Shown: positions 2,662 to 33,539, counted from the first letter of the stretch. The stretch: 33,539 nucleotides of DNA from Bacteroidota bacterium (GCA_016124735.1 WGMZ01000043.1:1-33539), one strand, 5' to 3'. Numbers and translations: made by a program. The notes: generated by a model not told the origin, from the letters alone.

Positions 2662-3258
2662 ATGCTCAATCTGAAGGAATACGTAAACAATGCTTTTACC
2701 TATGAAGAATACAGACAGCTGGGAAAGGACCTGGTTGAACAAGGTAAAACGACAGGATATGAACAAAGCGAATCCCGTATCCATTTTACGCGGTTGAATG
2801 ATAAAAGGATGGATCGGCTTGATAAAACCATTCAATTGGATGCTGCTCAACTAGCCCAATTGAAAGAGTACAAGTCCGACTCCATCTTTTTTGTTATTAC
2901 TGAAATGTGGTGCGGAGACTCTGCTGCCATTATTCCTCTGCTTCACAAAATCACACAAGCCCATCGCAGGATCAGGCTTCTTATCATTTTGAGAGATGAG
3001 AATCCGGAATTGATGGATGAATATGGAACAAATGGAACGAGTTCCATTCCGAAGTTGATCTTATTAAATCGCCAATTCGAAAAGCTTGGAATATGGGGAC
3101 CTCGTCCGGCACATGCACAGGAAATGATGCTTAACTGGAAAGCTCAACCCGTTGGACCCAAAAGCGAAGTGGATGAAGCCATTCAACGCTGGTACATTGA
3201 AGACAAAGGACAATCCATTATCAAAGAAATTTTGGACCTGTTAACGAATCAAAGTTAG
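2662..3258 (+). CDS. thioredoxin-family protein with a single-cysteine WCGDS active site
   Basis: The protein is 198 residues with no signal peptide, so cytoplasmic. A helical N-terminal part (1-70) precedes a thioredoxin-fold core with strand FFVITE, the active-site-like motif MWCGDSA, and the cis-Pro segment SSIPKLILL. The second cysteine of the classical CxxC is Ser, as in the Bacteroidota group annotated as thioredoxin family protein (Pfam Thioredoxin_9, from memory). Such a site could do monothiol or thiol-transfer chemistry but not ordinary dithiol disulfide reduction; the substrate is unknown. The last 18 bases overlap antisense with the 3' end of the giant PKD gene. Confidence 0.85.
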   Translation: MLNLKEYVNNAFTYEEYRQLGKDLVEQGKTTGYEQSESRIHFTRLNDKRMDRLDKTIQLDAAQLAQLKEYKSDSIFFVITEMWCGDSAAIIPLLHKITQAHRRIRLLIILRDENPELMDEYGTNGTSSIPKLILLNRQFEKLGIWGPRPAHAQEMMLNWKAQPVGPKSEVDEAIQRWYIEDKGQSIIKEILDLLTNQS

Positions 3259-6200: not shown

Positions 6201-8520
6201 TGACATTCGTGTAACGACAACCCTTATATATCGCTGAATATATTACATCGTACCACCCTGGTTTTGGCGGGTAGTATTGACAATTTCTGGTCGTACATGC
6301 CAACACCTCTCCAATCGTCCAATACCAACCCTCAGATCCAGGGGTTTGATCAAAAAACCAGGTTGTTTGACGGGTACAAACTGCCGTATCCGATCGCCAT
6401 TTGAGAATATCAGAGCTGGCTACAACGAAACTGTAACTCGAGGTATCCCAGCAGCCCGTCAAGGTATCGTTGGTAATCAGATTTGCGGTAAAATCACCCG
6501 GAGCATATACATGACTTACATTATCCCTTAAGTCGGTTTTAATCGTATCTCCATCTCCAAATATCCACTGAAAATATTGTCCTCCGATCGACCTGTTTTC
6601 AAAGAAAAGTGAGTCACCATTGCACCCCCCCGAAATTGCAGTTAAATGTGAGGTGGGATCCAGAACATTAATTAAATTCTTTTTGACCATGCTATCCGGA
6701 CAACCATGATGATAGGCCACCAACAACACATCGTAATAGGCTGAATTCGAAGTGTAAGTAAAGTCGGCTTCTTCCTTACCTTTGATTCGCAAACCCGTGC
6801 CAGGAAACCATTCAAAATAGTCAGCTTTCACATTTCCCTGGTTTGTGAGACTTTTAAAGTGAACCTTCAACTGATTTCTGCAACCCGTTGTATGGTCGAC
6901 AGTAAAGTTTGCCGCCGGTTGCATTCCCACCCCGATGGTATCATAAAATGCAGAATCTACGCACCCGTCGTCGGTCTTCACCCGGATATAGGGAAGAAAA
7001 AGCCCCGTATCATTGTAGGTGTGATTTGGGAATGATTGATTTGAATAAGTCCCATCTCCAAATCGGTAAGAAACAGAAGCCAATGGAGCATAGGAGATAG
7101 TATTATTAGAGAAACCTACGGTCAATGGAGCACAGCCCGAAAGAACGGAAGGTGTAAAATCTGCCCGGGGAGGACCGATTTTTATCATATCGCTGGCACG
7201 AACCGTATCGATGCACCCATTTGATCCGGTAACTTTCAACCTTACGGTAAATTTTCCCGTGTCAGGGTAATGTTTCTGAGGATTTCTAGCGGTGGAAGTT
7301 GTTCCATCTCCAAATTGCCATTCCCAACTGGAACCCACCGTAGTGGTTGAGGTAAATTTGACATCATGTGGTGCAGAACAGGCGGTTGAATCATCTGCAT
7401 AAAAAGCCGCACTGGGACCTGGGGATACTTGAACCAGATTCGTTTTAGTGATTGAATCTTTGCAGCCATTCGGTGTGGTAACCACTAATTTTACCGAATA
7501 ATTGCCTGAATTGCGAAATAATACACCTGTATCTTTTGCGGAGCTCCGGGCTATGGAGCCAAAGGACCATTCGTATTGATTCCCCACCAAGTTTGGAAGG
7601 GAGGAATTTCCAAAATTTACGAAGAGCGGCGGACAGCCAACATTGGGATTACTGGAAAAATTTGCTTTGGCAATTTCAACATTGATAAAGCTTTTCTTCG
7701 TAATCGTATCGCGGCAGCCGTTGGAGTTAACCACAATGAGTCTGACATCGAAGCCTCCGGCCGATTGATACACGTGACTGGGAGTTTTAGTTGTGGATGT
7801 GCCACCATCTCCAAAATCCCATTCATACGATACCGCACCCGTGGCCTTTGGATCTGTCGTATTGACAAAACTCACCGAGTGAGGATAGGAGCACCCTACC
7901 TGACTGCCCGATGCAAAGTCTGCGACCGGAATGGGTATAACCGTTATGAGTGCTTTCTTTTCCTTGATGGATTGACAGCCATTGGAATCCGTCACAATTA
8001 ATTTGACACTGAAGGTTCCAGGAGTCTGATAAACGTAAGAGGTGTTTCTGTTTGTATCAGAAAAGGTATTTCCAAAATCCCAAAAATAATCAGTAATGGG
8101 GCCACTCCCCAGCGTGGTTTTATTTGTGAAGCTGACAGGCCAAGGCTGACATCCCGTGGCCGTCGAGTTGATAAAATCTGCACTGGGCTTGTCAAAAATG
8201 GAAATGTAGGCGGTTTTGGTGGTTTTTACCACCTGATTGTTGGGAAAAGTCGCCTCAAGAGTGACTGTATAAACACCCGATTTGAAATAAACATTGCTCG
8301 GGTCTTTTTGAGTCGATGTGTTTCCATCACCAAAATCCCATTTATAACTGACAGGAGCCGGACTCGACTGGTCCGAAAAATTGATTGTATAGGGTGCGCA
8401 GCCCTTCAGCGCATTGGCAACAAAATCGCATGTTTGAGCCCACACGCCTCCCACGGAACATAGCGTTCCCACTAAGCAAAGGATACTAATCCTCCGTACG
8501 GATGTCAAGAGCTCTGGCAA
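3241..8520 (-). CDS. giant PKD-array surface protein with T9SS type-B C-terminal domain
   Basis: The product is 1759 residues. A signal peptide (cleavage probably after VWAQ, about residue 29) is followed by roughly 14-15 PKD or PKD-like domains to about residue 1293, many with the WDFGDG-type core. Three or four fibronectin-III-like modules follow (about 1295-1660), then a C-terminal domain of about 90 residues with YVPNAF, IYDRWGQ.LFET and WDGTVGGEPAPQGVYIY. That is the gliding-motility-associated / T9SS type-B sorting domain. The protein should be exported by Sec, moved across the outer membrane by T9SS and displayed as an adhesin or gliding-type filament. The start is TTG: a TAG lies two codons upstream, no ATG precedes the signal peptide, and codon 5 is also TTG. 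It is probably monocistronic. PKD domains commonly pair a GC at the start with a late NGC.D, which suggests disulfides. Confidence 0.93.
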   Translation of the reverse strand: MPELLTSVRRISILCLVGTLCSVGGVWAQTCDFVANALKGCAPYTINFSDQSSPAPVSYKWDFGDGNTSTQKDPSNVYFKSGVYTVTLEATFPNNQVVKTTKTAYISIFDKPSADFINSTATGCQPWPVSFTNKTTLGSGPITDYFWDFGNTFSDTNRNTSYVYQTPGTFSVKLIVTDSNGCQSIKEKKALITVIPIPVADFASGSQVGCSYPHSVSFVNTTDPKATGAVSYEWDFGDGGTSTTKTPSHVYQSAGGFDVRLIVVNSNGCRDTITKKSFINVEIAKANFSSNPNVGCPPLFVNFGNSSLPNLVGNQYEWSFGSIARSSAKDTGVLFRNSGNYSVKLVVTTPNGCKDSITKTNLVQVSPGPSAAFYADDSTACSAPHDVKFTSTTTVGSSWEWQFGDGTTSTARNPQKHYPDTGKFTVRLKVTGSNGCIDTVRASDMIKIGPPRADFTPSVLSGCAPLTVGFSNNTISYAPLASVSYRFGDGTYSNQSFPNHTYNDTGLFLPYIRVKTDDGCVDSAFYDTIGVGMQPAANFTVDHTTGCRNQLKVHFKSLTNQGNVKADYFEWFPGTGLRIKGKEEADFTYTSNSAYYDVLLVAYHHGCPDSMVKKNLINVLDPTSHLTAISGGCNGDSLFFENRSIGGQYFQWIFGDGDTIKTDLRDNVSHVYAPGDFTANLITNDTLTGCWDTSSYSFVVASSDILKWRSDTAVCTRQTTWFFDQTPGSEGWYWTIGEVLACTTRNCQYYPPKPGWYDVIYSAIYKGCRYTNVKKNYLHVYGPGFDFLTPDDPICAPKLVNMVTHVGGERPIKNASVSVYKNLSFIESIKITSDTIPYYFSEASYPQDSGYFFRYSAIDTAGCSNYAEDRMLVYRPKGEFIHERRATCLGDKQYFEASILDTTSPKPLQFRWEFGDGTVETYDSNSVFHSYMHDSIYAMKLIIIDSIGCADTLRNDLNIDVRNLKADFRASDTFKLCPPMVVSFYDSSKSSYNGIIDWEWSLGDGAKGNARQPVKAYLEPGKYDISLKITDSLGCVDSIIKPAYIHIQGTKITYSIDVLSGCEPLTLKINSLALGNAEINWNMRDGSNIKDSTDFTYVYKTHGSYVPSAFVKDQSGCQYIVASKDTIKVFPRPVAAFSVIPGCKGDSSKTLNLTEEYGDTVNYTWYFTKQDSVKERAPHYKYPNEGDYPVLLFATSVKGCMDSVSDIAIVSDPTGKVKLASPRSCAMDSIQIELVNLGVGQVTQVNWDFDDGNSLSVSDSVIKHVYLNKGVYQPHLNFVNQYGCKGYVLPGDSLVVGDNFAPVVSEIFRTSVDDDNRTSTWFQSNNSVDFEKYIVQRMGASGRFNSIAEITNSQDTIFLDAVPTLHQSYRYRVLTKNFCGYYTDTSALTPHRTIELTAAPANNSSHLTWNAYEGWQPDGYEIWRLKPGIGFEKLMEVSGNQLYAFDSAITCNQGYYYKIKATGSGKYQESFSDSSGTIPHYIPYVAPNELYAASIEGNNKNLIQWSYSKGGKEKVAYYILERSKDGINYHETKRFDEYSNNGYDRVDSASLRNYYYRTIVQDSCGYQSEPSNYGRTMILKAEIDTNDRPKLTWDQYEYWEEGVDFYDIEIYDKGQFVYLATTDGFTTSYTDMITDVNQRADYCYRITARSTLDGGKTSHSSIACAPVHSRIYVPNAFRPVGGLKENSHFYPKGMYISDFYMAIYDRWGQMLFETHNMDEGWDGTVGGEPAPQGVYIYYIEYKGVDKDFESLSGNLTLIR

Positions 8521-21318: not shown

Positions 21319-22914
21319 TTAATACCCGCGCGCTGTTTTCCTCCTCACAAAACTTCCGACCAGGATTAGAATTGAGAAGAATGCCGCAATTTTTCCTATA
21401 TAATCACCGCTTTGCGAATAAAATGTTTCCCCGGGTTCAGCCGGCAATGGATAGCGCAACGCATCCTGCGTCCACCAATCGGATTGCATCAGCACATCGC
21501 CCATGGGAGAAATAAATCCAGACACCCCGGTATTTGCCGATCTGGCCACATACATTCTGTTCTCAATGGCACGGAGTCGAGCATATAAAAAGTGCTGTTT
21601 GTATCCAGGCGTATCTTTCCACCAGCCATCGTTGGTTATAATTACCAAGAGGTTCGCACCGTTCCGAACGTATTCGCCAACATATTCTCCAAAAACCGAT
21701 TCATAGCAGATGATGGGTGCAATTTTTAAATGGGTGTCCATCACCGAAAATATTGCCGCCGAATCACTGCTGCCAAGAGAACCACTGGTGCCTCCCAAAT
21801 CAATGGTCAGCTTTTCCAGAAAACCAAAAATGGCCGGGTAGGGCATCTTCTCCACGCCGGGCACCAATTTAGATTTGTGGTAAATTCCAACCTTGCCATC
21901 ATCGAAAAAGAGGGCTGTATTGAAAACATCGTAATAGAGGTCTTCCGCTGCCGGATGCCGCCTGGCGGTTTCGGAATGCCTTTCCCCAGTTTGGTAGTAT
22001 TTCACTGTGTTTGCCCCTGCAAGTAGTGAAGTTTTGGGGTAGTTCTTCAGCCATTCCTGAATTTTCAGAATGACCGCATCCATCTGAAGATCCGATTCTT
22101 CAAGGTAATCGGTTATTGAGGTTTCCGGCCATACCAGCAAACGGGTGTTTTCTGTCAGCATTGAATCACTCAACCGCATCAAAACAACCAATTGCTCTTC
22201 CGGGCTCATGCCTCCGAACTTGTCTGAATAAGGGTCAATATTTGGTTGTACCACTACTGTTTCATACCGTATCTGTTTCAGAGGCATCTTGTATTTACCC
22301 CGGTACAGAAAGAATCCCGAAACCATCAGAGGCACCACAATGAGCACGGTTGGCTTAAGCCAGGCTCTGTTTTGTCCTGAATTTATCAGGAATTTGAATA
22401 CCGATATGTTCACCAGGTATATCCATAAGCTGCCTCCCAGAACGCCCGTAATTTCATACCACTGAACGGACCAAACCGCCTTTGCAAACACATTTCCCAA
22501 ATTGAGCCAGGGCCAGGCTAAATCCCAGTTGAGATGGAGGTATTCTATGCTCAGTGAAAAGGCAATCAATGCCGGAAAGGCCAATTTCGGCTGCATGGTT
22601 TTGCGAACCCGATGATAAAAAAGCCAGGGCAAGGTTTGGAGTTGAGCATTGAGCAAGATGGCTGCTGCGGCTCCCGCCGGAGAAGCAAACCAGGTCCAGT
22701 ACGTTGTTACCGCATTCCAGACAGTGAAACTCAGGCTGATTTGCAAATAGTACTGCAAGGGTTTGTCGGCGACCTGATAGTGATGATCTTCTATCATCAA
22801 AAGAGGAACAAGGGCCAGGAATACAAAAAAAGGAACAGGCATTGGCGGCCAGGCTACTGACAAAAGAGCTGCCGTCAATAAACTCAGCGCCCAGGGGTTC
22901 TTCAATCTAGACAT
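21319..22914 (-). CDS. lnt: apolipoprotein N-acyltransferase
   Basis: The ATG at 22914 gives 531 residues. The frame extends 61 codons further but into the divergent TetR gene. An N-terminal membrane domain of about six helices is followed by a carbon-nitrogen hydrolase domain with the catalytic triad Glu in VWPETSITDYL, Lys in HKSKLVPGVEKMPY and Cys in IICYESVFGEYV. A final membrane helix is near the C-terminus. It adds the third acyl chain to lipoproteins in the inner membrane; several lipoprotein substrates are encoded in the same window (M48, TPR, DUF4292). It is divergent from the TetR gene with 39 bases between. Confidence 0.95.
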   Translation of the reverse strand: MSRLKNPWALSLLTAALLSVAWPPMPVPFFVFLALVPLLMIEDHHYQVADKPLQYYLQISLSFTVWNAVTTYWTWFASPAGAAAAILLNAQLQTLPWLFYHRVRKTMQPKLAFPALIAFSLSIEYLHLNWDLAWPWLNLGNVFAKAVWSVQWYEITGVLGGSLWIYLVNISVFKFLINSGQNRAWLKPTVLIVVPLMVSGFFLYRGKYKMPLKQIRYETVVVQPNIDPYSDKFGGMSPEEQLVVLMRLSDSMLTENTRLLVWPETSITDYLEESDLQMDAVILKIQEWLKNYPKTSLLAGANTVKYYQTGERHSETARRHPAAEDLYYDVFNTALFFDDGKVGIYHKSKLVPGVEKMPYPAIFGFLEKLTIDLGGTSGSLGSSDSAAIFSVMDTHLKIAPIICYESVFGEYVGEYVRNGANLLVIITNDGWWKDTPGYKQHFLYARLRAIENRMYVARSANTGVSGFISPMGDVLMQSDWWTQDALRYPLPAEPGETFYSQSGDYIGKIAAFFSILILVGSFVRRKTARGY

Positions 22915-22920
22915 TCTATT

Positions 22921-22928
22921 CAAAAGTA
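22921..22928 (-). promoter_or_regulatory. -7 promoter element TACTTTTG for lnt
   Basis: It is a perfect TAnnTTTG match 6 bases before the lnt ATG, inside the 39-base gap shared with the divergent TetR gene. The TetR protein could therefore act on lnt as well as on itself. No -33 TTG is seen. Confidence 0.45.
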
Positions 22929-22953
22929 TTACTTTCGGGGAAGCTTTTACTGC

Positions 22954-23496
22954 ATGACCCGCTTCAGAAAAGAGATATCCGCACAGAAAATTCGCGACAC
23001 GGCCCTTAGCCTGTTTGGAAGTGAAGGGTATTACAATACTTCCATCCGTCAAATTGCCAGCAAAGCCAATGTAGCACTTGGTCTTCTTTATAGTCACTAT
23101 GCGGGAAAAGAGGCCTTGTTGCGTGATTTATTTCAAACAGGAATAAATTCCATCCAAAATGAGTTTAATCAGAGAAGCAAAGAGCTTAGCCTGTCGGAAC
23201 AGTGCCTGTTAACCTTTCAAATTTTGACTGAACATGCTCCCTATTGGCGATTGCTTCATGGGATAAGAATGCAAAAATCTCTGTCCGATTATCTGTATCA
23301 GGAGATAGAAGACATCCAGCTCTATTTCATAGAGCACTTTCGGAATGAATTAAAAAAGCGCAAGGTGAAGAATCCTCGGACCGAAGCGCGCATCATCTGG
23401 ACCTGCATTGACGGTATTTTTGCCGAAAAGCAAACCCGGGATGAGTTCCCTGCAGAGAAAACGCTGTTGGCCCTGGCAGCGCGTTATGAGCCTTGA
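22954..23496 (+). CDS. TetR-family transcriptional regulator
   Basis: The product is 180 residues. The N-terminal helix-turn-helix has the TetR pattern: IRDTALSLFGSEGYYNTSIRQIASKANVALGLLYSHYAGKEALL. The C-terminal two thirds are helical and would form the ligand-binding and dimer part; the ligand is unknown. It is divergent from lnt, with starts 39 bases apart, so local control of lnt or autoregulation is plausible but not shown. No clear palindromic operator is visible in the gap. Its 3' end overlaps rsmI antisense by 13 bases. Confidence 0.93.
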   Translation: MTRFRKEISAQKIRDTALSLFGSEGYYNTSIRQIASKANVALGLLYSHYAGKEALLRDLFQTGINSIQNEFNQRSKELSLSEQCLLTFQILTEHAPYWRLLHGIRMQKSLSDYLYQEIEDIQLYFIEHFRNELKKRKVKNPRTEARIIWTCIDGIFAEKQTRDEFPAEKTLLALAARYEP

Positions 23497-24194
23497 TATG
23501 ATTTTCCGGCAATAACCAGGGCCAATTCTCCTTTAGGCGGGTTTTCCTGCACAGATTGAAGCAGTTCTGATAAAGTCCCCCGGCGTTTTTCCTCGAATTT
23601 TTTACTGATTTCTCTGACCAGACAAACCGCTCTACCTTCCCCGAAAAAAGGCATCATCTGTTCCAGACATTTCAAGATACGATGCGGCGATTCGTAGAGC
23701 ACCACCGTTCTTTCCTCTTCCGCCAACTCCATCAATCTCGTTTGGCGCCCTTTTTTAAGCGGAAGGAAGCCTTCGTACACGAATCGCTCGCACGGGAAAC
23801 CTGAAACGACAAGAGCCGGAACAAAGGCTGTAGCACCCGGCAGGCAGGTTACTTCTATTCCCTCACGCACCGCTTCCCGCACCAACAAAAAGCCGGGATC
23901 GGAAATGGCAGGAGTACCGGCATCGCTTATGAGCGCCAGAGTCAGGCCCTCTTTGAGTTTGGCGATATAGCCACTCAGTACCTTATGTTCATTGTGCAGA
24001 TGAAAAGCAGACAAGCGTGCGTTGATTTCAAAATGCTTTAAGAGAACCCCGCTAGTACGCGTGTCTTCTGCCAGAACCAGATCCGCCTCCTTCAGTACCT
24101 GAATGGCGCGGAAACTCATGTCATCCAAATGACCAATTGGCGTCGGTACAATAAAGAGCTGACCAGATGAATTTGTCGCGTTTTTATCGCTCAT
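23484..24194 (-). CDS. rsmI: 16S rRNA (cytidine(1402)-2'-O)-methyltransferase
   Basis: The ATG at 24194 gives 236 residues. Conserved RsmI blocks are VPTPIGHLDDMSFRA, LAEDTRTSGVLL, ISDAGTPAISDPG and LPGATAFVPALV, followed by YESPHRI and VREISKKFEE. It methylates the ribose of C1402 in the ribosomal P-site. The frame reaches 24254, but that extension would overlap the promoter element at 24256-24263, so it would not be on the transcript. Its 3' end overlaps the TetR gene. It is divergent from the phosphoesterase gene. Confidence 0.95.
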   Translation of the reverse strand: MSDKNATNSSGQLFIVPTPIGHLDDMSFRAIQVLKEADLVLAEDTRTSGVLLKHFEINARLSAFHLHNEHKVLSGYIAKLKEGLTLALISDAGTPAISDPGFLLVREAVREGIEVTCLPGATAFVPALVVSGFPCERFVYEGFLPLKKGRQTRLMELAEEERTVVLYESPHRILKCLEQMMPFFGEGRAVCLVREISKKFEEKRRGTLSELLQSVQENPPKGELALVIAGKSYQGS

Positions 24195-24255
24195 TTTTAG
24201 GTTTTTATATTGTATCCGAAAACACAGGTAGCAGAAATATGTTCTCCCGGACACA

Positions 24256-24263
24256 CAAAGTTA
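24256..24263 (-). promoter_or_regulatory. -7 promoter element TAACTTTG for rsmI
   Basis: It is a perfect TAnnTTTG match with a TTG 15 bases further upstream (24279-24281), a short spacing. The leader to the ATG at 24194 would be about 55 bases, longer than for the other promoters in the window. Confidence 0.4.
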
Positions 24264-24295
24264 ACAGCCTATTAAAAGCAAGGTAACAGGCTCTC

Positions 24296-25165
24296 ATGAA
24301 ATTTGTGACAAATATGGGAAAGAAAAAACTGGACATTGCAGTGATTTCTGATGTTCATCTTGGCACCTATGGTTGTCATGCCAAGGAACTCAATCAATAT
24401 CTGAAGTCCATCGACCCAAAAATCCTCATCTTAAATGGGGACATCATCGACATCTGGCAATTCAGCAAACGCTTTTGGCCGGATAGCCATATGAAAGTGA
24501 TTCAGCGAATTGTGAAAATGCTGAGTCAGGGTACAACAGTCTATTATCTCACCGGCAACCATGACGAAATGCTGCGACGATTTTCTGATTTTGAATTGGG
24601 GAATTTTCATGTATTGGACAAGCTCATTTTGGAACAGGACGGCAAGCGCATGTGGTTTTTTCACGGCGATGTGTTCGACATTACCATGCGCCACAGTAAA
24701 TGGCTGGCCAAGCTTGGCGGATGGGGATACGACCTGTTGATTCTTTTGAATCGACTGGTGAATTTCATCTCCGTCAAAATCCTGAGGAAAGGAAAACTTT
24801 CCCTCTCCAAAAAAATCAAGAACGGCGTAAAATCGGCCATCAAGTTTATTGACGATTTTGAGGAAACGGCTATAGACCTTGCCATTTCTAATGCGTACGA
24901 CTATGTGTTGTGCGGGCATATCCACCAGCCCTGTATTCGAGAAATCACAAAAGAAAACGGTTCGGTAACCTATTTGAATTCCGGTGATTGGATAGAAAAC
25001 CTGACCTCCCTCGAATATGTCGAAGGAGCCTGGAGCCTGTACAAATTTGCCGATCATGCCAGCGAATTGGCAAGTGAAGAAGAAGATTTCAAAAGCACCC
25101 CAGCAATTCAGCACCTTTATGAAGATCTTGTACGGGATTCAGGGAACCGGCAATGGGCATATTAG
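24296..25165 (+). CDS. LpxH-like metallophosphoesterase (UDP-2,3-diacylglucosamine diphosphatase family)
   Basis: The product is 289 residues from the ATG at 24296; a second ATG at 24314 (MGKKKLDI) is equally likely. Calcineurin-like metal motifs are in order: ISDVHLG (D19, H21), LNGDIIDIW, LTGNHDEM, FFHGDVFD and LCGHIHQP. This matches the Bacteroidota LpxH-like group that removes UMP from UDP-diacylglucosamine in lipid A synthesis. Substrate assignment rests on family resemblance. The 3' end overlaps the glycosyltransferase gene by 47 bases, and the pair is likely co-transcribed. Confidence 0.85.
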   Translation: MKFVTNMGKKKLDIAVISDVHLGTYGCHAKELNQYLKSIDPKILILNGDIIDIWQFSKRFWPDSHMKVIQRIVKMLSQGTTVYYLTGNHDEMLRRFSDFELGNFHVLDKLILEQDGKRMWFFHGDVFDITMRHSKWLAKLGGWGYDLLILLNRLVNFISVKILRKGKLSLSKKIKNGVKSAIKFIDDFEETAIDLAISNAYDYVLCGHIHQPCIREITKENGSVTYLNSGDWIENLTSLEYVEGAWSLYKFADHASELASEEEDFKSTPAIQHLYEDLVRDSGNRQWAY

Positions 25166-26153
25166 CCGGGCGAAGGAAATAATTCCCCACCTGAGGAAAT
25201 ACAACCAGGTGGATATCCTGATAAGCGGCACCCAGGCAGAAGTGCAATTGCATTGGGAAATAAAATACCGATACCATGGCTTTGGTTTTGTTTTTGGCAA
25301 AAATGGAGGTGTGGACATTTGGAGTACCTGGAAAAATCTCCGAACCTTCGAATTGATAAAGGATATTGTGCAACTCAACCTGGATGAATATGATCTGATA
25401 ATAAGCGACTTCGAACCCATCAGTGCATGGTCTGCCAAACTCCACGGGAAACCCTGTTTAGGACTCAGCCATCAGGCATCATTACTCAACCCACATGTGC
25501 CCATTGCAACGCATAAACCATTTTGGATGGATTTCTTCCTCCGCAATTATGCCCCGTCTACAGATCAAATTGGGTTTCATTTCAATTCGTATGATCGCGG
25601 TATATTCCCACCCGTTATCCGAAAGGAAATTAGGGAGGCAACTCCAATCAATGAAGGACATATTACGGTTTACCTTCCCGCCTACCATGACGAAGTGCTC
25701 CTGCCCCTATTCCTCAATATTCCCGATGTCGAATGGCAGGTCTTTTGTAAAAGCCGCAGGCATATTGAGACGCATCGCAATGTGCAGCTGAGGCCTGTTG
25801 ATGGAGATGATTTCACGAAAAGCCTGGTAAGCTGCGGTGGAATTCTGTGCGGGGCCGGTTTTGAAACTCCTGCAGAGGCTATGTACCTGGGGAAAAAAGT
25901 ATTTGTGGTCCCGATGTTCAATCAATATGAACAAAGGTGCAACGCCGTAGCGGCTCACGCCATCGGGTGCTCGCTGGCTTCACAGATTGAAAGCAGCTTC
26001 ACTTATAAACTGAGAAGCTGGATTGAATACGGCAAACCCGTAGTGAATAAGCAGGAAGATCCTATACCTGCATTAATGAAGTTGATTGACAAGTATGGGC
26101 ATAAACCGGAGGAAAACAGTCAAGGCAACTGGATTGCCGAATTAACGCTGTAA
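25119..26153 (+). CDS. MurG-like GT-B glycosyltransferase
   Basis: The ATG at 25119 gives 344 residues starting MKILYGIQGTGNGHISRAKEI, a typical GT-B N-terminal glycine loop. The C-terminal domain has CGGILCGAGFETPAEAMYLGKKVFVVPMFNQYEQRCNA, the donor-binding region of MurG and glucuronosyltransferase-type enzymes. It resembles the small family once named after an archaeal hypothetical protein (TIGR00661). The acceptor is unknown; pairing with an LpxH-like gene suggests glycolipid or lipid A-linked work. Upstream open codons are antisense-free but lie inside the phosphoesterase gene and lack homology. Confidence 0.83.
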   Translation: MKILYGIQGTGNGHISRAKEIIPHLRKYNQVDILISGTQAEVQLHWEIKYRYHGFGFVFGKNGGVDIWSTWKNLRTFELIKDIVQLNLDEYDLIISDFEPISAWSAKLHGKPCLGLSHQASLLNPHVPIATHKPFWMDFFLRNYAPSTDQIGFHFNSYDRGIFPPVIRKEIREATPINEGHITVYLPAYHDEVLLPLFLNIPDVEWQVFCKSRRHIETHRNVQLRPVDGDDFTKSLVSCGGILCGAGFETPAEAMYLGKKVFVVPMFNQYEQRCNAVAAHAIGCSLASQIESSFTYKLRSWIEYGKPVVNKQEDPIPALMKLIDKYGHKPEENSQGNWIAELTL

Positions 26154-26185: not shown

Positions 26186-26215
26186 TTGGATAAAGGAAAC
26201 AACCCAATATATTTG
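26186..26215 (+). promoter_or_regulatory. promoter of the LytTR regulator gene (TTG-N19-TATATTTG)
   Basis: A -33 TTG at 26186-26188 and a perfect -7 element at 26208-26215 are separated by 19 bases, the best promoter in the window together with the TPR operon promoter. Transcription should start near 26220, inside or next to the palindrome at 26215-26224. Confidence 0.7.
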
Positions 26216-26224
26216 CGTTAACGC
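26215..26224. promoter_or_regulatory. perfect 10-bp palindrome GCGTTAACGC at the predicted transcription start
   Basis: The palindrome shares its first G with the last base of the -7 element and covers the predicted +1. A protein bound here would block initiation, so it is a candidate operator for control of the LytTR gene. A 10-bp palindrome can also arise by chance. Confidence 0.35.
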
Positions 26225-26241
26225 GTAAAACCTTTTTAGTA

Positions 26242-26976
26242 TTGGCTTTTAGTACCATTATCGTAGAAGACTCGGACATTTATCGGAAGGTTCTGGAGGA
26301 AATTGTTCGTAGCAATAAAGATCTGGATCTTATTGCCAGCACAGGTGATTTTGAGGAAGCCAAAGTTATCCTTGAAACCATGATTCCGGATTTGATATTG
26401 CTCGATATTGAAATTGGATCCATGACTTCTTTCGATCTGATACCCTTTATCAATCCACAATGCAGGATTGTATTCGTTACTTCCCACCCGGATTATGCAG
26501 TAAAGGCTTTTGAAATCAGTGCGGTTGACTATTTGGTCAAACCTGTTACCATGGAACGGCTGAATCAGGCCATTAACCGATTTAAAATCACCTTAGAAGG
26601 AGGGAATAAGGACGCTGGCGTTTCTGAGGAAAAATTCAGCATGGACCAGCGCGTGATGGTAGCAGATGATGACCGGTATACTTTAATAGAGGTTGCCCGG
26701 ATTATGTATATAGAAGCTTTAGGCAATTACGTTCAATTATTCACCGGTCCCGAGACACGCCTCGTAACTTATGGTTCCATCAAAAACTGGGTAAACCGTT
26801 TGCCGGCCAAACATTTTTTTCAGATACACCGGTCGACCATCATCAATCTTGAATTTTTGGAGCGCATAGAAAAATACACCAACGATACCGGACGTGCTTA
26901 TTTAAAAGGCAAAACAGAGCCACTTGAGATCAGCCGGAATTACTTCAGTTTGATGAAAAAAACGTTTAAGGTATAG
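26242..26976 (+). CDS. LytTR-family response regulator
   Basis: The product is 244 residues. The receiver domain (1-120) has the acidic pair E9-D10, the phosphoacceptor D55 in LILLDIEIG, T80 and K100 in VDYLVKPV. The LytTR DNA-binding domain (about 145-244) has IMYIEALGNYVQLFT and FFQIHRSTIINLEFLERI. The start is TTG, the only usable start in this frame before the first strand; a TAA lies 51 bases upstream. No histidine kinase is adjacent, so the partner is elsewhere. It sits directly upstream of three large surface-protein genes, and a match to the LytTR site consensus lies just after its stop codon. Confidence 0.93.
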   Translation: MAFSTIIVEDSDIYRKVLEEIVRSNKDLDLIASTGDFEEAKVILETMIPDLILLDIEIGSMTSFDLIPFINPQCRIVFVTSHPDYAVKAFEISAVDYLVKPVTMERLNQAINRFKITLEGGNKDAGVSEEKFSMDQRVMVADDDRYTLIEVARIMYIEALGNYVQLFTGPETRLVTYGSIKNWVNRLPAKHFFQIHRSTIINLEFLERIEKYTNDTGRAYLKGKTEPLEISRNYFSLMKKTFKV

Positions 26977-26993
26977 CGCTTCAAAATATTCCC

Positions 26994-27023
26994 ACCGTCA
27001 ATCTGGCGTTTTCCACCGTTTAT
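26994..27023 (+). promoter_or_regulatory. probable LytTR binding site: 9-bp direct repeat at 21-bp spacing
   Basis: ACCGTCAAT (26994-27002) and ACCGTTTAT (27015-27023) start exactly 21 bp apart, two DNA turns. Both lie in longer copies beginning CCACCGT. Against the LytTR consensus [TA][AC][CA]GTTN[AG][TG], the second half-site matches at 9 of 9 positions and the first at 8 of 9. The pair sits 75-104 bases upstream of the ATG of the first surface gene. A third, weaker copy (AACGTTTAA, 26961-26969) lies in the end of the regulator gene. Confidence 0.55.
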
Positions 27024-27097
27024 ATAATGGAACCGCTGCCTAAATAATTCTCACGAGAACTACGCACCAACAAAAGTAATTTCGACCATCCTTAAAA

Positions 27098-30000
27098 ATG
27101 GACGAAATGAAAAGAATACTTCATGCATTCGTAATTTTCACTGGCACCTTGATGTCGTTTATGAACTCAGCCCAGGCTCAGAGTTTTCAGCTCGACGTAA
27201 GACATCAGGAGTACAGTGGCGACACCATGTTTTTCGACATATATATGAGTCGGGTGGGTGGTAGTTCTGATTACCACCTGGGAAATGCCGATTTTGTGCT
27301 TTCTTTTAACAGTACAAATTTCAGCAGTCCAAGCACGGATTTTGTCGCAAGCTCAGATTCTCTTTTTGCCAGCAACGGTTCCACTTCTGCTTACAGTTCT
27401 AATATAGTATCGTCCATTTCCAGTGGCAATATTATCATCAACCTGCAACAACCCACCTTCAGCAATCAAACTGATTTCAACAATAATATTGCAGTGATAA
27501 GCACTAGCGCCACCAAATTAGGAACCTTTTGGGTAAATGGATTAACAGACGCGACTCAATCACCAACGTTGACTTGGGTTACCAACGGAAATCCCAAGAC
27601 CCTGGTTTATACATTGAATGCCAGCTCTCCCTGGAAATCGAACAAGATTCCGAATGGAAGCATGATATTCAACGACCCTACGCCAACCACAGCGCCCGGC
27701 ACACAGCTTACCGCACTTAATGTGAGCAGTAAAACCGATACCAGCATGACCCTTGCCTGGACCAGCGGTTCGGGCGACTACACCCTGATTCTTGCCAAAC
27801 AAGGCTCAGCAGTGAGCACGGACTTGCCGGCAGATGGAATTCAATACAGTGCTGGAGATTTTGCAAGCGGATCTGAAATCAAAAGCACCGGAGTTTATGT
27901 GGTGTACAACGGACCATCATCTACCGCTTCTACTACGATCCAGGGACTTACTGCCAATACAGTATATTACTTCTCCGCATTAACCTATTCCGGATCGGAA
28001 GGTTACAGCGAAAATTACAGAGTCGACAGCGTGGCAACGGTAAGCGATACCACCAATGCCACCGAACCTAATACTTCTGCAACCGCCCTGCAATTCACCG
28101 CGTTTAGCACGACAAGCCTCAGTCTGAGTTGGACCAATGGCGACGGCGCCAACCGCATTGTAGTGGCAAAAGAGGGAAGTGCCGTAGACGTTGATCCGAG
28201 CGATGCCAATGCCTATACCGCCAATGCAGATTTCACTGCGGGAGCGAATCTGGGTTCTGGAAATATCGTGGTGTACGACGGCTCAGGCAGCTCCTTAACC
28301 GTGACCAACCTGAATCCCGACAGCAACTATTACTTCGCTGTTTATGAATACAATGGTTCCTATGGAACCAGAAACTACAGAGTGGATACTCCGGCTACCG
28401 GCCACAGATACACACTTGCCAGCGAACCAACGGCCATTGCGAGCAACGCCAGTTTCTCAAATGTCACCACTACATCCATGACCTTCAGTTTTAATGGAGG
28501 AAATGGTGCGAAGCGACTCATCCTGATCAAATCAGCGTCAGCCGTAGACAGCATTCCGAGAGATGGAGAAGAATTTACTGCGAACACCGTTTATGGCAGC
28601 GGGGACGTATTCCAAACAGGCAACTATGTGATATACGCATCCGACTCGAATAATGTGACGGTAACAGGATTGAGCTCCGGCACGGTGTATCACTATAGTG
28701 TTATTGAATACAACGGAACCGGTGAGGCAGCAAATTACCTGACCTCAACGACCCTTACCGCTTCTCAGACCACCTTGTCTGATGAGCCAACAGCCGCGTC
28801 GACCAACTTTGCCTTTACGGCATGGGATACCACCGAACTTTCCTTCAACTGGATCTCATCCGGAGCAGGTACCGGTTCAAACCGCATCGTGGTGGCACGT
28901 GAGGCTTCTGCAGTCGACTTTGTTCCAACGGATCAAAATTCATACACTGCAAATTCAACTTTTGGTTCCGGCACCGGACTAGGTACCAGCAGCGATAACT
29001 ACGTGATTTATAACGGAACGGATACGACTGCCTCTGTGAGCGGACTGAGCATCGGTACTCTGTATTATTTCGCTGTATACGAATACAATGGATCAAGCGG
29101 ATCTGAAAATTACTATTCTACTCCGTTGACGGGCAACAGATATACAGATACGGCTTCACCAAGCTCTCCTGCTGCATCAGCCAGCTTCTCTAATATTACG
29201 ACAAGCTCCATGCAGTTCGATTTCACTTCCGGAAATGGTGGACGTAGATTGATTCTTGTTAGACCTGGCAGCGCGGTGAATGGAAGCCCATCCGATGGTT
29301 ACGCCTACAACGCAAGTTCAACTCTTGCATCCGGAGACACGATCGGAACCGATAACTATGTAGTTTACGATGGTACAGGAACCAGTGTAACCGTAAGTGG
29401 ACTGACAGCCAATACAACCTATTACTTCGAAGTATTTGAATACAACCAGGCCAATTCGAACAGTGAATCGAACAACTACCTGCCTACACCAAGCCTCACT
29501 GCAAGCCATATCACCTTGCAATCAGCTCCGGTCAATCAGGTTAGCGGACTTACTGTTACCTCGCGCACTACCAGCACCATCGATCTGAGCTGGACCAGCG
29601 CAGGTAGTGACTCGGTATTGATTGTGGCAACCAGTGTAGACTCTGTTGCCAACAGCGAACTACCGGTGAGTGGTACCATATACCAATACGACTCCAATTA
29701 TGCTGCGGGCTTTGCCGCCTTGGGCAATGGATATGTGGTGTACAAAGGAACCGGCACAACGGCTACCGTGAGAAACCTCGGACAGGATACCATGTGGCAT
29801 TTTGCTGCCTTTGCTTATGCCGGTGGAAACGGATCTCAGGCCTATAATACCAGCTTCGAAGACAATACGGATTCGGCCAATACGAAGTTCCAACTGGATA
29901 TAACGGTAATGCTCGAAGGACCGATGATCTATCAAACCATGGATACATCACTGAACGTGAGTGGCTATGTACCGACGTCGCAACCTTATGCCATGGCACC

Positions 30001-30553
30001 CTATTATTATGGTGGTACTGAAACTGCCACTTTGAATGACAGCGTTGTGGATTGGGTACTGGTAGAAGTAAGAAAATCGGCCACCGTTGGCGCAGCCGAC
30101 AGCAGCACCCGGGTTACTCGCATGGCGGCATTGCTCCTGTTTAATGGATCGGTGGTTGCAACAGATGGACATTCTCCATTGACCATTGACATTGATTCTG
30201 CATTGTATGGTAATACCTTCGTGGTGGTATATCACCGAAACCACATACCGGTATTGACCGCAACCCAGGCAACACTTGCTGCCGGCGGCTATAGTTTCGA
30301 CTTCACAAGCGGCACTTCGCAAGCCAATGGAACCAGTGCCATGACCACCGTGAATGGAGTGGCGGCTATGTGGGGCGGTAATGCACATCCAAGTTCCAAT
30401 TCAATTGGAGCCAACGATCGCAATGCCGGTTGGGATGATCGGAATAGCAGCGGATACAAAAGCAGCGACGTGAACCTGGATGGATATGTTGATGCTGCCG
30501 ACCGTTCGTTGATCTACAACAACACCGGTCAGGACAGACAGATTAACAACTAA
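27098..30553 (+). CDS. large secreted protein: cohesin-like module, six FnIII repeats, C-terminal module with dockerin-like loop
   Basis: The product is 1151 residues. A signal peptide ends near SAQAQS; an ATG three codons in is an alternative start. Residues about 30-190 form a cohesin-like module (FDIYMSR...LGNADFVLSFN, ending LGTFWVNG). Six fibronectin-III-like repeats of 118-124 residues span about 202-929. A module of about 190 residues follows (VMLEGPM, MDTSLN, VDWVLVEVR, VVYHRNHIPV, YSFDFTSGT). The end is a calcium-loop-like DVNLDGYVDAAD (D1124, N1126, D1128, D1132, D1135); the paired first loop looks degenerate. There is no T9SS C-terminal domain. A surface adhesin or structural role is likely. 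It is the first of three tandem related genes behind a LytTR regulator and is followed by a strong terminator. TAATTTCG at 27077-27084 is a one-mismatch -7 element. Confidence 0.85.
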   Translation: MDEMKRILHAFVIFTGTLMSFMNSAQAQSFQLDVRHQEYSGDTMFFDIYMSRVGGSSDYHLGNADFVLSFNSTNFSSPSTDFVASSDSLFASNGSTSAYSSNIVSSISSGNIIINLQQPTFSNQTDFNNNIAVISTSATKLGTFWVNGLTDATQSPTLTWVTNGNPKTLVYTLNASSPWKSNKIPNGSMIFNDPTPTTAPGTQLTALNVSSKTDTSMTLAWTSGSGDYTLILAKQGSAVSTDLPADGIQYSAGDFASGSEIKSTGVYVVYNGPSSTASTTIQGLTANTVYYFSALTYSGSEGYSENYRVDSVATVSDTTNATEPNTSATALQFTAFSTTSLSLSWTNGDGANRIVVAKEGSAVDVDPSDANAYTANADFTAGANLGSGNIVVYDGSGSSLTVTNLNPDSNYYFAVYEYNGSYGTRNYRVDTPATGHRYTLASEPTAIASNASFSNVTTTSMTFSFNGGNGAKRLILIKSASAVDSIPRDGEEFTANTVYGSGDVFQTGNYVIYASDSNNVTVTGLSSGTVYHYSVIEYNGTGEAANYLTSTTLTASQTTLSDEPTAASTNFAFTAWDTTELSFNWISSGAGTGSNRIVVAREASAVDFVPTDQNSYTANSTFGSGTGLGTSSDNYVIYNGTDTTASVSGLSIGTLYYFAVYEYNGSSGSENYYSTPLTGNRYTDTASPSSPAASASFSNITTSSMQFDFTSGNGGRRLILVRPGSAVNGSPSDGYAYNASSTLASGDTIGTDNYVVYDGTGTSVTVSGLTANTTYYFEVFEYNQANSNSESNNYLPTPSLTASHITLQSAPVNQVSGLTVTSRTTSTIDLSWTSAGSDSVLIVATSVDSVANSELPVSGTIYQYDSNYAAGFAALGNGYVVYKGTGTTATVRNLGQDTMWHFAAFAYAGGNGSQAYNTSFEDNTDSANTKFQLDITVMLEGPMIYQTMDTSLNVSGYVPTSQPYAMAPYYYGGTETATLNDSVVDWVLVEVRKSATVGAADSSTRVTRMAALLLFNGSVVATDGHSPLTIDIDSALYGNTFVVVYHRNHIPVLTATQATLAAGGYSFDFTSGTSQANGTSAMTTVNGVAAMWGGNAHPSSNSIGANDRNAGWDDRNSSGYKSSDVNLDGYVDAADRSLIYNNTGQDRQINN
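27701..29884 (+). repeat. six tandem FnIII-like domain repeats inside the surface protein gene
   Basis: Repeat starts are at 27701, 28070, 28430, 28790, 29162 and 29531. Repeats 2 and 4 share NRIVVA..(G/A)SAVD and the ending TG.RYT, while repeats 3 and 5 share ASFSN.TT.SM.F.F..GNG..RLIL and an NYL.T..LTAS ending. This alternation shows that a two-domain unit (2+3) was duplicated to give 4+5. Repeats 1 and 6 are more divergent. Confidence 0.8.
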
Positions 30554-30576
30554 GTATTTTCTTCAAAAAAAGAGAA

Positions 30577-30607
30577 AGAGGCACTTTTGTAAGTGCCTCT
30601 TTTTTTT
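30577..30607 (+). terminator. strong Rho-independent terminator after the first surface gene
   Basis: AGAGGCACTT (30577-30586) and AAGTGCCTCT (30591-30600) form a perfect 10-bp stem with a TTGT loop, followed by seven T residues and preceded by A residues that could extend the stem. It starts 23 bases after the stop codon, so the next gene is probably transcribed from its own promoter. The remaining bases to 30725 show no further recognisable element. Confidence 0.9.
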
Positions 30608-30725
30608 GAGCATAAGCTGAATTATCCCCACCAGCCACACGTCCTAACTGCCATTAAAATAATAGGACTACCTCTGGAATAATACCCCTTCAATAGCTAC
30701 AATCTTTATAAGAATTTTGAGATTG

Positions 30726-32351
30726 ATGTATCAGCGATACGCGAGTTTTGGTGTTTGGTTTATGTTTCTTCTGCAGGCAGTTTTTGCAGTGGATGCAGAT
30801 GTACTTGTGCGCAATCAGCATATAAGTAATGACACCTTCTTTTTTGATATTTACCTTCAGGCACAAGGGAGCACCAATATTTTCCTAGGTAATTCTGACT
30901 TCGCCCTCGATTACAACGAATCGATTTTTACGAATCAAGGCTTTTATTACCAGGCCGGCAGCACCATCCTGGAGAACAGCTCCGGCGCCGCCACTGCATT
31001 TTACGACACGAATATTTCTACCAAGTTGGAAAGCACCGGCATCAATGCAAACAAACTGATGATTATTGTTCAGATGCCGGTTTATTCGAATTCGAGCAAT
31101 TTTCAGGCACGCATTGCACGCATTGATTCCCGACCATTGACCCATAAACTGGGTACTTTCTTTATAACAGGAATAACCACGGCCAATACGAATCCATCCC
31201 TAAGTTGGATTATCAGCGGAAAAGGTCTCGTTACCCTGGTTACCGGCCGCGACAGTGCTGCCATGACTGCCTATGACGTGAATAGCAATTCCGTAAATCC
31301 GGCAGTCGGAGCACAGCCCACCGTGCAGGCAAGTGCATTACAGGTGAGTTCCGCTACGAGCAGTAGTTTGACACTCAGCTGGACCCGTGGAAACGGGGAT
31401 TCCTGTATTCTTCTGATGCGTCAGGGAGTTGCCGTGAGCGCCTTCCCCGAAAACGGACTTTTCTACACAGCCGACACCGTTTTTGGTAATGGATCGGCCA
31501 TTGGAGCCACCAGCAATTATGTGGTGTACAATGGAAGCGGCAACCAGGTGACTATATCCGGACTCAGCAACAGTACTTCCTACCAGTTTGCCTTGATGGA
31601 ATACTCAGGAGGTAATGGTTGGAATGAAAATTATCTGAGCACCAACCCGGATACGGTAACGGGAACGACGGGCGGTGCATATATCACGGTCAATGTAACT
31701 GTATTTCTAGCAGGTCCTTATAAAACAGCATTCGGTACAATGGATACAAGCCTGAATGCAAACGGATACCTTCCTTTGTCGCAACCATATTCGGGAAATA
31801 TGACTGGTTGGAAATATAATGGACAAGAATCCGTGTCAAGTATTCCAAATGCCAATATTGTAGATTGGGTTATCGTAGAATTAAGAACAGGCACCTCTGC
31901 AGCTGATACACTTTCATCCAACTCAAAAAGAGCCGGGTTTTTACTTAAAGATGGCAGTATAGTAGATACAAACGGAATTGATCCATTAAGATTTTACAAC
32001 GTATCCGCTGGATATTATTATGTCGTGATTCGCCATAGAAATCATTTAGCCATCATGTCATCATCTCCAATATCTATAAGTCAAAATACAAGCAATTATA
32101 ATTTCAGTTCGGGAACGAGCACTGCATACGGAAACAATTCTTTGACTTCAAAAAATGGAGTATACTGTATGATATCCTGCGATTTTGATGGAAACGGAGG
32201 AATAAACGCTCTCGACTATAATTACTGGAAATCACAAAACGGAAATACTAATTACAATTCTGCCGACGCAGATATGAATGGCGGTATAAACGCCAATGAC
32301 TACAACGCCTGGAAGGCAAATAACGGAGGTTCTACAAATGTACCAAACTAA
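30726..32351 (+). CDS. secreted protein: cohesin-like module, one FnIII repeat, C-terminal module with two dockerin-like loops
   Basis: From the ATG at 30726 the product is 541 residues; a TTG three codons earlier is less likely. A signal peptide ends near VFAVDA. A cohesin-like module (about 25-195) is followed by one FnIII domain (about 200-318) close to repeat 1 of the upstream protein. A C-terminal module from about residue 319 (VFLAGPY, MDTSLNANGYLP, VDWVIVELR, VVIRHRNHLAI) comes next. The end has two calcium-loop-like motifs 28 residues apart, DFDGNGGINALD (486-497) and DADMNGGINAND (514-525), the layout of a dockerin. There is no T9SS C-terminal domain. The gene is a short paralogue of its upstream neighbour. 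From 31680 on, GC content drops sharply, unlike the matching module upstream. Confidence 0.83.
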   Translation: MYQRYASFGVWFMFLLQAVFAVDADVLVRNQHISNDTFFFDIYLQAQGSTNIFLGNSDFALDYNESIFTNQGFYYQAGSTILENSSGAATAFYDTNISTKLESTGINANKLMIIVQMPVYSNSSNFQARIARIDSRPLTHKLGTFFITGITTANTNPSLSWIISGKGLVTLVTGRDSAAMTAYDVNSNSVNPAVGAQPTVQASALQVSSATSSSLTLSWTRGNGDSCILLMRQGVAVSAFPENGLFYTADTVFGNGSAIGATSNYVVYNGSGNQVTISGLSNSTSYQFALMEYSGGNGWNENYLSTNPDTVTGTTGGAYITVNVTVFLAGPYKTAFGTMDTSLNANGYLPLSQPYSGNMTGWKYNGQESVSSIPNANIVDWVIVELRTGTSAADTLSSNSKRAGFLLKDGSIVDTNGIDPLRFYNVSAGYYYVVIRHRNHLAIMSSSPISISQNTSNYNFSSGTSTAYGNNSLTSKNGVYCMISCDFDGNGGINALDYNYWKSQNGNTNYNSADADMNGGINANDYNAWKANNGGSTNVPN

Positions 32352-33200
32352 TGCCCCTATGAAAGCGAAACTACTTACAAGTGTAATTTTAATACTATCA
32401 GTTCTTTCAAGCAGCGCTACGGATTTAAATCTGCGGCTGACCAAAATTCGGGATGACGGAACTACGTATTTATGCCGTCTCGAAATCAATGCTTCCTCTG
32501 CCGCGAACCTGGGAGTTTCCAATTTCGTAGTCACTTTTGACAATACTGCATTGTCATTTCCAACGCCCTTGGATACTGCCTACTACGACACCTATAACTA
32601 TTACAACCCCCCATACTATGACAACTCCAATCCAATTAATGTAAGTAATGCAGCAAGTGGAGTATTAGTCATCAATATTGTTTCCTCATTCAATGGGCTT
32701 ACTACTGCAATAGGCACTGGTTCAACTTGGACCCCCGTTTTGGATCTTGAATTTGACTACGTGAACACCAATGTTAATCCAAATCTTGGATTTAATCCAA
32801 ATCACGTAAATTGGGTATTGCAAGAAGATAATGGCTCAAGTTATGTTTCTATGGGAACCGGCACTACAACCGGAATTACGGACCCTTTGAATGTTAACTG
32901 GGTAGGGACAACTTCCGATTGGTCAACCGCTAGCAATTGGACGCCTAGCACAAATGTTCCTGGTGCCAACTCAAATATTACAATTCCTAGTTCTCCAACA
33001 GGAGGAAACTTTCCTTCATTATCCACTTCTACCAGTATAGGAGATATCACTCTTTCAAGCAGTTCAACATTAAGCCTAAATGGTCAAACGGCAACATTTT
33101 CAGGAAGCATTTCAGGCACAGGTGTCATTATTGGCTCAACTACTTCCTCTATAATAATGAATGGTTCTGATGCAAACACCCTATCTCTGGACCAAACAAC
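31680..33200. other. low-GC block starting at a protein domain boundary
   Basis: Hand counts give 52% GC for 31321-31680 and 38% for 31681-32040, with lines as low as 28% (32041-32100) and 37-38% at 32641-32700 and 33121-33180. GC is 52-55% again at 33241-33360. The left edge falls at the junction between the FnIII domain and the C-terminal module of the second surface protein; the right edge lies inside the third gene and is approximate. Confidence 0.6.
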
Positions 33201-33539
33201 GGCTGGAGCTACTAACAGCCTCAACGACTTAACCTTAAACAACAGCTCTGGACTTACTCTGGGTAATGCCCTGCAATTGAACGGAGTCCTCACCCTCACA
33301 TCCGGAACCCTGACTTCCTCAGGCAACCTGACACTCAAAGCCAGCTCTACCAGCTCTTACGGACAAATTGCGAACAGTGGCTCAGGCAGCTTCAGCGGCA
33401 ATGTGGTGATGGAAAAATACCTCAGCGACACTACTGCCAAATGGAGGCAATTCAGCCTTCCACTGGTCGGCGACCTGACCGGCTTTGGAAATATTGACCT
33501 CTTGTATTCCAGCCATTCTACGGCCAATGAAAGAAACGT
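32359..33539 (+). CDS. large secreted protein with N-terminal cohesin-like module (3' end outside window)
   Basis: The ATG at 32359 opens a frame that stays open to the window edge (393 codons plus two bases). It starts MKAKLLTSVILILSVLSSSA, a signal peptide. Residues about 21-180 form another cohesin-like module (NLGVSNFVVTFDNTALSF, a Tyr/Asn/Pro-rich insertion, then VLDLEFDY). After NVNWVGTTSDWSTASNW comes a Ser/Thr/Gly-rich beta-repeat region (ITLSSSSTLSLNGQT, LTLTSGTLTSSGNLTLK) and then VVMEKYLSD...WRQFSLPLVG. This layout is common in T9SS-exported Bacteroidota adhesins, so a sorting domain may lie beyond the window. It begins 7 bases after the stop of the second surface gene and is probably co-transcribed with it. 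Confidence 0.8.
   Translation, partial: MKAKLLTSVILILSVLSSSATDLNLRLTKIRDDGTTYLCRLEINASSAANLGVSNFVVTFDNTALSFPTPLDTAYYDTYNYYNPPYYDNSNPINVSNAASGVLVINIVSSFNGLTTAIGTGSTWTPVLDLEFDYVNTNVNPNLGFNPNHVNWVLQEDNGSSYVSMGTGTTTGITDPLNVNWVGTTSDWSTASNWTPSTNVPGANSNITIPSSPTGGNFPSLSTSTSIGDITLSSSSTLSLNGQTATFSGSISGTGVIIGSTTSSIIMNGSDANTLSLDQTTAGATNSLNDLTLNNSSGLTLGNALQLNGVLTLTSGTLTSSGNLTLKASSTSSYGQIANSGSGSFSGNVVMEKYLSDTTAKWRQFSLPLVGDLTGFGNIDLLYSSHSTANERN

Follow-up and report, generated by a model that had tools for sequence, protein, structure and literature searches.

At the right-hand end of a contig from a Bacteroidota bacterium (GCA_016124735.1, WGMZ01000043.1), a LytTR-family regulator gene is followed by a run of genes for secreted proteins that may together form a surface system built from cohesin-like and dockerin modules. 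The window analyzed here is the complete contig (C53; 33,539 bases), and its source genome has 3.1 Mb and is 98.6% complete. The regulator gene is followed by P1, P2 and the 5' part of P3, all on the + strand, and a further gene, P4, lies beyond P3 on contig C35:

26242..26976, + strand: LytTR-family response regulator gene, with receiver (PF00072, E=3e-16) and LytTR DNA-binding domain (PF04397, E=4e-21); TTG start
27098..30553, + strand: P1 (1151 residues), with signal peptide, cohesin-like module, six FN3-like repeats, and X-module plus dockerin-like C-terminus
30726..32351, + strand: P2 (541 residues), with signal peptide, cohesin-like module, one FN3-like repeat, and X-module plus dockerin
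32338..33539, + strand: 5' part of P3 (start 32338 or 32362), with signal peptide, cohesin-like module, 'WVGTTSDW' linker and beta-rich repeats
C35:1356-4463: P4, ending in an X-module plus dockerin (XDoc)

C35 opens with the same 141 bases with which the window closes, and P3, cut by the contig end, runs on over C35:1-1357 to a joined length of about 800 residues; the join is based on this overlap and on synteny, not on reads. In a genome of the same genus (G001), P1, P2 and P3 are consecutive on a single contig, and the P3 there is 46% identical over 408 residues to the part carried by C35. A reading made from the sequence alone had proposed the third protein as a possible anchor, to be sought by reading past position 33,539, and P3 does end in a type-A tail of the type IX secretion system (T9SS; TIGR04183 above cut-off at C35:1181-1351, E=7e-6), one of 106 such matches in the whole genome. 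The same reading was also right that P1 and P2 lack a T9SS tail (none found by profile search) and that P1-P3 lack a glycoside hydrolase (GH) domain (none found in a Pfam search); the gene trio, whose conservation it had listed as a check, recurs in G001. Its three-gene locus holds for the tandem genes in the window, but with P4 the locus has at least four.

The calcium loops in which P1 and P2 had been said to end are the end of a larger unit of about 225 residues, consisting of an X-module of about 165 residues and a dockerin. The XDoc profile used to follow this unit (A5) has the P1 copy among its seeds.

29885..30550, + strand: P1 X-module plus dockerin-like dyad (A5 E=1e-67, being an A5 seed; a direct search gives 36% identity with the P2 copy)
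31671..32348, + strand: P2 X-module plus dockerin dyad (predicted structure, predicted local distance difference test [pLDDT] 95.7, predicted template modeling score [pTM] 0.92)
32181..32348, + strand: dockerin part of P2, with two canonical calcium loops, DFDGNGGINALD and DADMNGGINAND

The claim of terminal loops thus stands fully for P2 and in part for P1, which has a single intact loop (DVNLDGYVDAAD, 30467-30502), the other being degenerate. When the P2 model was used to search the PDB by fold, the top ten matches were all XDoc chains of C. thermocellum (best E=6e-5, probability 1.00), with template modeling (TM) scores of 0.52-0.62 against these chains of about 156 residues, and next came a dockerin from B. 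cellulosolvens, superposed at 1.2 A across 54 residues. Judged from the P2 model, which supplies the dyad fold, the C-terminal module of P1, P2 and P4 is an X-module plus dockerin. The X-module of P1 and P2 has no Pfam or NCBIfam model, and a Pfam search of 102 XDoc members returned Dockerin_1 in 12 (E<=0.01, best 3e-6), Y_Y_Y in 1, and nothing else. The source genome carries four XDocs, the fourth being in a 2891-residue protein on contig C20. In another genus, g11 (genomes G012, G056 and G092; loci L135, L136 and L141), each genome encodes at least 14 to 24 proteins with an X-module. Their calcium loops are of the insertion type (VKYTGSxNDRDPIL), and downstream of some of them lie small, divergent proteins with a T9SS tail, which may represent further cohesins.

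The N-terminal modules were followed with two profiles, A4 for the P1/P2 type and A3 for the P3 type, the P1 and P3 copies being among the seeds of their own profiles.

27182..27658, + strand: cohesin-like N-module of P1 (A4 E=8e-53; one of the A4 seeds)
30795..31277, + strand: cohesin-like N-module of P2 (predicted structure, pLDDT 87.9, pTM 0.82)
32422..32874, + strand: cohesin-like N-module of P3 (A3 E=1e-38, but a seed of A3; the only A3 match in the genome)

The module of P1 is homologous to that of P2 (38% identity over the start of P2), the two profiles are homologous to each other (hhalign E=8e-7, probability 91.5), and in the source genome they match only P1, P2 and P3. Sequence-only searches of the PDB, whether with the single P2 sequence or with the N-module profiles, found no cohesin, and a fold search was therefore needed. 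With the P2 model, the top PDB match was a Ruminococcus cohesin (5lxv_C, E=9.8e-4, probability 1.00); CBM3 came next, and several other cohesins were within the top 20. The N-modules of P1-P3 are homologous and, on the strength of the P2 model, cohesin-like in fold. This agrees with the sequence-only reading, which had placed three secreted proteins with such modules after a LytTR gene. The profile searches that it had called for gave a mixed answer: the window modules fall below the Pfam cut-offs, while relatives match, with Cohesin (PF00963) found weakly in 4 of 21 P3-type modules (best E=3e-4) and Dockerin_1 in the 12 of 102 XDocs given above. Because the window copies miss the Pfam cut-off and the TM scores are modest, we call the module "cohesin-like". 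Scaffoldin-like arrays of three tandem cohesin-like modules were seen in one protein directly downstream of an XDoc gene (L092:5169-6605) and in an 851-residue open reading frame (ORF) elsewhere (G294:C23:280529-282022). One genome (G148) has 13 Pfam Cohesin matches, four of them within a single 1721-residue ORF, and no XDoc match, possibly reflecting another dockerin type.

That the XDoc and cohesin-like families are genomic partners across phyla is supported by their arrangement in many genomes. Among 120 XDoc genes whose next gene was known, 32 had a cohesin-like gene as that neighbor, on the same strand and no more than 400 bp away, but only 3 of 96 had one in front of them (p=8e-7 for the asymmetry). 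TIGR04183 was found in 24 of 25 downstream proteins, mostly adjacent ones, the 25th being the contig-cut P3. Of the T9SS-tailed genes in the same loci, 25 of the 32 that immediately follow an XDoc gene have a cohesin-like module, versus 8 of 61 others (p=6e-10). XDoc genes often precede a cohesin-like gene, usually T9SS-tailed, in Bacteroidota, Ignavibacteriota, Calditrichota and Rhodothermaceae. Less biased than the adjacency figure of these first loci is the co-occurrence in a newly drawn sample of 247 Bacteroidota genomes: 15 contained the cohesin-like family, and every one of these was XDoc-positive (34 were XDoc-positive overall), giving p=5e-15, or p=4e-14 without the window's own genome, in a sample that spans many families and a test that does not fully remove descent. 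Of the 24 cohesin-like matches outside the window's own genome, 19 lay within 1 kb downstream of an XDoc. Pfam cohesins also occur within XDoc proteins themselves (5 of 49, best E=8e-23), one XDoc protein (L116:877-2016) scoring 24.9 bits against the cut-off of 24.1. Pfam Cohesin is enriched in XDoc genomes (24/43 vs 2/33), a comparison that is confounded by class. The distances among XDocs and among the neighboring cohesins are correlated (Mantel r=0.63, 0/5000 permutations); co-evolution is not claimed from this, because the correlation follows species descent. The telling detail here is a locus with two pairs (L054), each of which is nearest to the matching pair elsewhere (L055/L056 and L106).

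What would such a pair of modules do? The reading that we favor, with a probability of about 0.75, is a cohesin-dockerin system at the cell surface, anchored through T9SS, free of glycoside hydrolases and working like the anchoring layer of a cellulosome. P3 combines a cohesin-like module with a T9SS type-A tail and therefore would be exported and fixed to the outer surface as the anchor. P1 and P2, cohesin-like at the N-terminal end and XDoc at the C-terminal end, could be adaptors, docking onto P3 and onto each other. P4 and the 2891-residue protein, with an X-dockerin only, would be terminal clients, and the dockerins would presumably be folded by calcium, as they are in clostridia. As for what is held, the frequent domains in 49 XDoc proteins were Cohesin, fn3, Ig and peptidases of families C25, S8, M4, C10, M14 and M28, and no GH or carbohydrate-binding module (CBM) family was among the 25 most frequent of 76 cargo families. 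The sequence-only reading, in which terminal loops dock onto the cohesin-like modules of neighbors and could thereby build a calcium-dependent surface fiber or layer, is partly supported overall.

Several observations weigh against this view. Pfam Cohesin has no match in P1-P3 up to E=1, nor any in the source genome, and Dockerin_1 reaches 16.3 bits in P2, under its cut-off of 22.9. The cohesin matches of the P2 N-module are modest (TM mostly 0.35-0.53), with the related CBM3 fold among the top ones. Only one canonical calcium loop is present in P1, P4 and the C20 protein, and several homologues have none. No recognizable A3 cohesin was found in 19 of the 34 XDoc genomes of the fresh draw, and genus g11 has neither an A3 nor an A4 match. 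The adjacency seen in the first loci is biased, because most A3 seeds were chosen next to XDocs. The docking of XDoc to cohesin-like modules is something we infer from predicted folds and linkage, and the reading offers no route by which the tail-less P1, P2 and P4 would cross the outer membrane. A tentative and rather unlikely answer to the last point is that the cohesin-bearing, T9SS-tailed protein acts as a carrier, capturing tail-less XDoc proteins in the periplasm and taking them through the T9SS pore by a sorting signal supplied in trans; this would explain both the lack of T9SS tails on XDoc proteins and the position of the carrier gene directly after that of its client.

The N-modules could instead be carbohydrate-binding adhesin domains (CBM2- or CBM3-like) on proteins that act independently. 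CBM3 structures are indeed among the top fold matches, and adhesins often contain FN3-like and beta-rich repeats. However, the top fold match is a cohesin, the Pfam family that appears in relatives of the P3 type is Cohesin rather than a CBM, and every cohesin-like-positive genome of the fresh sample carries an XDoc, all of which makes independent adhesins improbable. It is likewise improbable, and somewhat more so, that the XDoc-like unit stands in for the type-A tail as an unrecognized sorting signal of the T9SS, with the cohesin-like neighbors being unrelated cargo. In favor of such a signal, 117 of 127 XDoc proteins from 79 loci carry the unit no more than 40 residues from the C-terminus, no such protein also has a type-A tail, and 66 of 115 have [QS][VI]P as their last residues. 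On the other hand, its fold is that of an XDoc, and a sorting signal would leave the frequent pairing with cohesin-like genes unexplained. A Thermoplasmatota archaeon (L077, L115), in whose genome TIGR04183 has no match, also has XDoc proteins, including a gingipain-like peptidase of family C25, and one of its XDoc genes is immediately followed by a cohesin-like gene. Since the pair exists in an archaeon without T9SS tails, the XDoc probably serves for docking rather than as a T9SS signal. The archaeal contig L115 also holds an archaeal type-IV pilin gene (Pilin_N) beside its XDoc genes, and one X-module protein on it (L115:9860-10948) has a hydrophobic, basic C-terminal tail resembling a membrane anchor. 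Finally, with about 100 T9SS-tailed proteins per Bacteroidota genome such neighbors are common, but that these are ordinary surface proteins whose modules adjoin by coincidence is hardly credible, being contradicted by the linkage statistics (25/32 vs 8/61, p=6e-10; asymmetry p=8e-7).

The regulator, with both receiver and LytTR domains present, is a genuine member of its family, and it probably controls at least P1, to judge from linkage: in G001 the C-terminus of a LytTR protein lies directly upstream of P1, and in another relative (G004) the order metallophosphatase, glycosyltransferase, LytTR, P1 is the same as in the window. Two further features bear on transcription:

26994..27023, + strand: candidate LytTR box upstream of P1, direct repeats ACCGTCAAT-N12-ACCGTTTAT; weak
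30575..30602, no strand assigned: 12-bp hairpin between P1 and P2 with A and T runs on its flanks; likely a bidirectional transcription terminator

The candidate box has one mismatch in total against the LytTR-box consensus of the literature, and there are only 2 such pairs in the window on both strands. In G001 and G004 the region upstream of P1 showed no such box, and the candidate is therefore not used as evidence of control. The hairpin was reported on the - strand, and a T-run also follows it on the + strand. Lying between P1 and P2, it suggests a transcript of its own for P1 and an operon of P2, P3 and P4, rather than a single LytTR-controlled transcription unit. Elsewhere in the window are genes for Lnt (apolipoprotein N-acyltransferase), a metallophosphatase and a glycosyltransferase, upstream of the LytTR gene (21319-26153), and a 1759-residue PKD-array protein with a CHU_C (T9SS type-B) tail (3241-8520, - strand).

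These results point to a wide distribution of cohesin-dockerin pairs, largely missed by Pfam, among Bacteroidota and related phyla, and to a socket-and-plug gene pair as a widespread, unannotated means of holding proteins on the cell surface. If the binding is real, gene order predicts an anchor partner for many surface proteases and adhesins that lack annotation, and protein engineering gains a new, non-clostridial cohesin-XDoc family. The passage of tail-less XDoc proteins across the outer membrane also becomes a testable question. Cohesin and dockerin modules outside cellulosomes, archaea included, were reportedly the subject of a 2009 paper, to go by its title. No earlier report of an XDoc-cohesin-T9SS gene pair in Bacteroidota or related phyla was found in a search of open-access papers, and such reports may exist elsewhere. 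One genome paper found no cohesins or dockerins, consistent with other Bacteroidetes genomes (PMC5831590).

How does this system compare with known ones? A cellulosome, defined by dockerin-bearing glycoside hydrolases on a multi-cohesin scaffoldin, it is not, the window proteins having one cohesin-like module each. It is closer to the anchoring layer of clostridial cellulosomes (type II cohesin with X-module-dockerin, as in CipA, SdbA and OlpB of C. thermocellum), in which an X-module likewise stands immediately before the C-terminal dockerin, the cohesin partner is on a surface-anchored protein, and adaptors bear both cohesin and dockerin. Unlike that layer, the anchor here has a T9SS type-A tail rather than SLH, the X-module, of about 165 residues, exceeds the clostridial one in size, there is mostly one cohesin-like module per protein, and the 25 most frequent cargo families are free of GHs and CBMs. 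The nearest precedent found is the putative cellulosome-like complex of Candidatus Stygibacter (Cloacimonadota), which has a cohesin scaffoldin with a T9SS-type C-terminal domain and dockerin-bearing C25 and S8 peptidases (PMC8542988), the T9SS-tailed cohesin protein and the two peptidase families being the features in common. There, however, a single 3755-residue multi-cohesin/CBM scaffoldin is accompanied by some GHs, with domains visible to the databases (PMC8542988), whereas the system described here consists mostly of single-module anchors that adjoin their XDoc gene and are largely invisible to Pfam.

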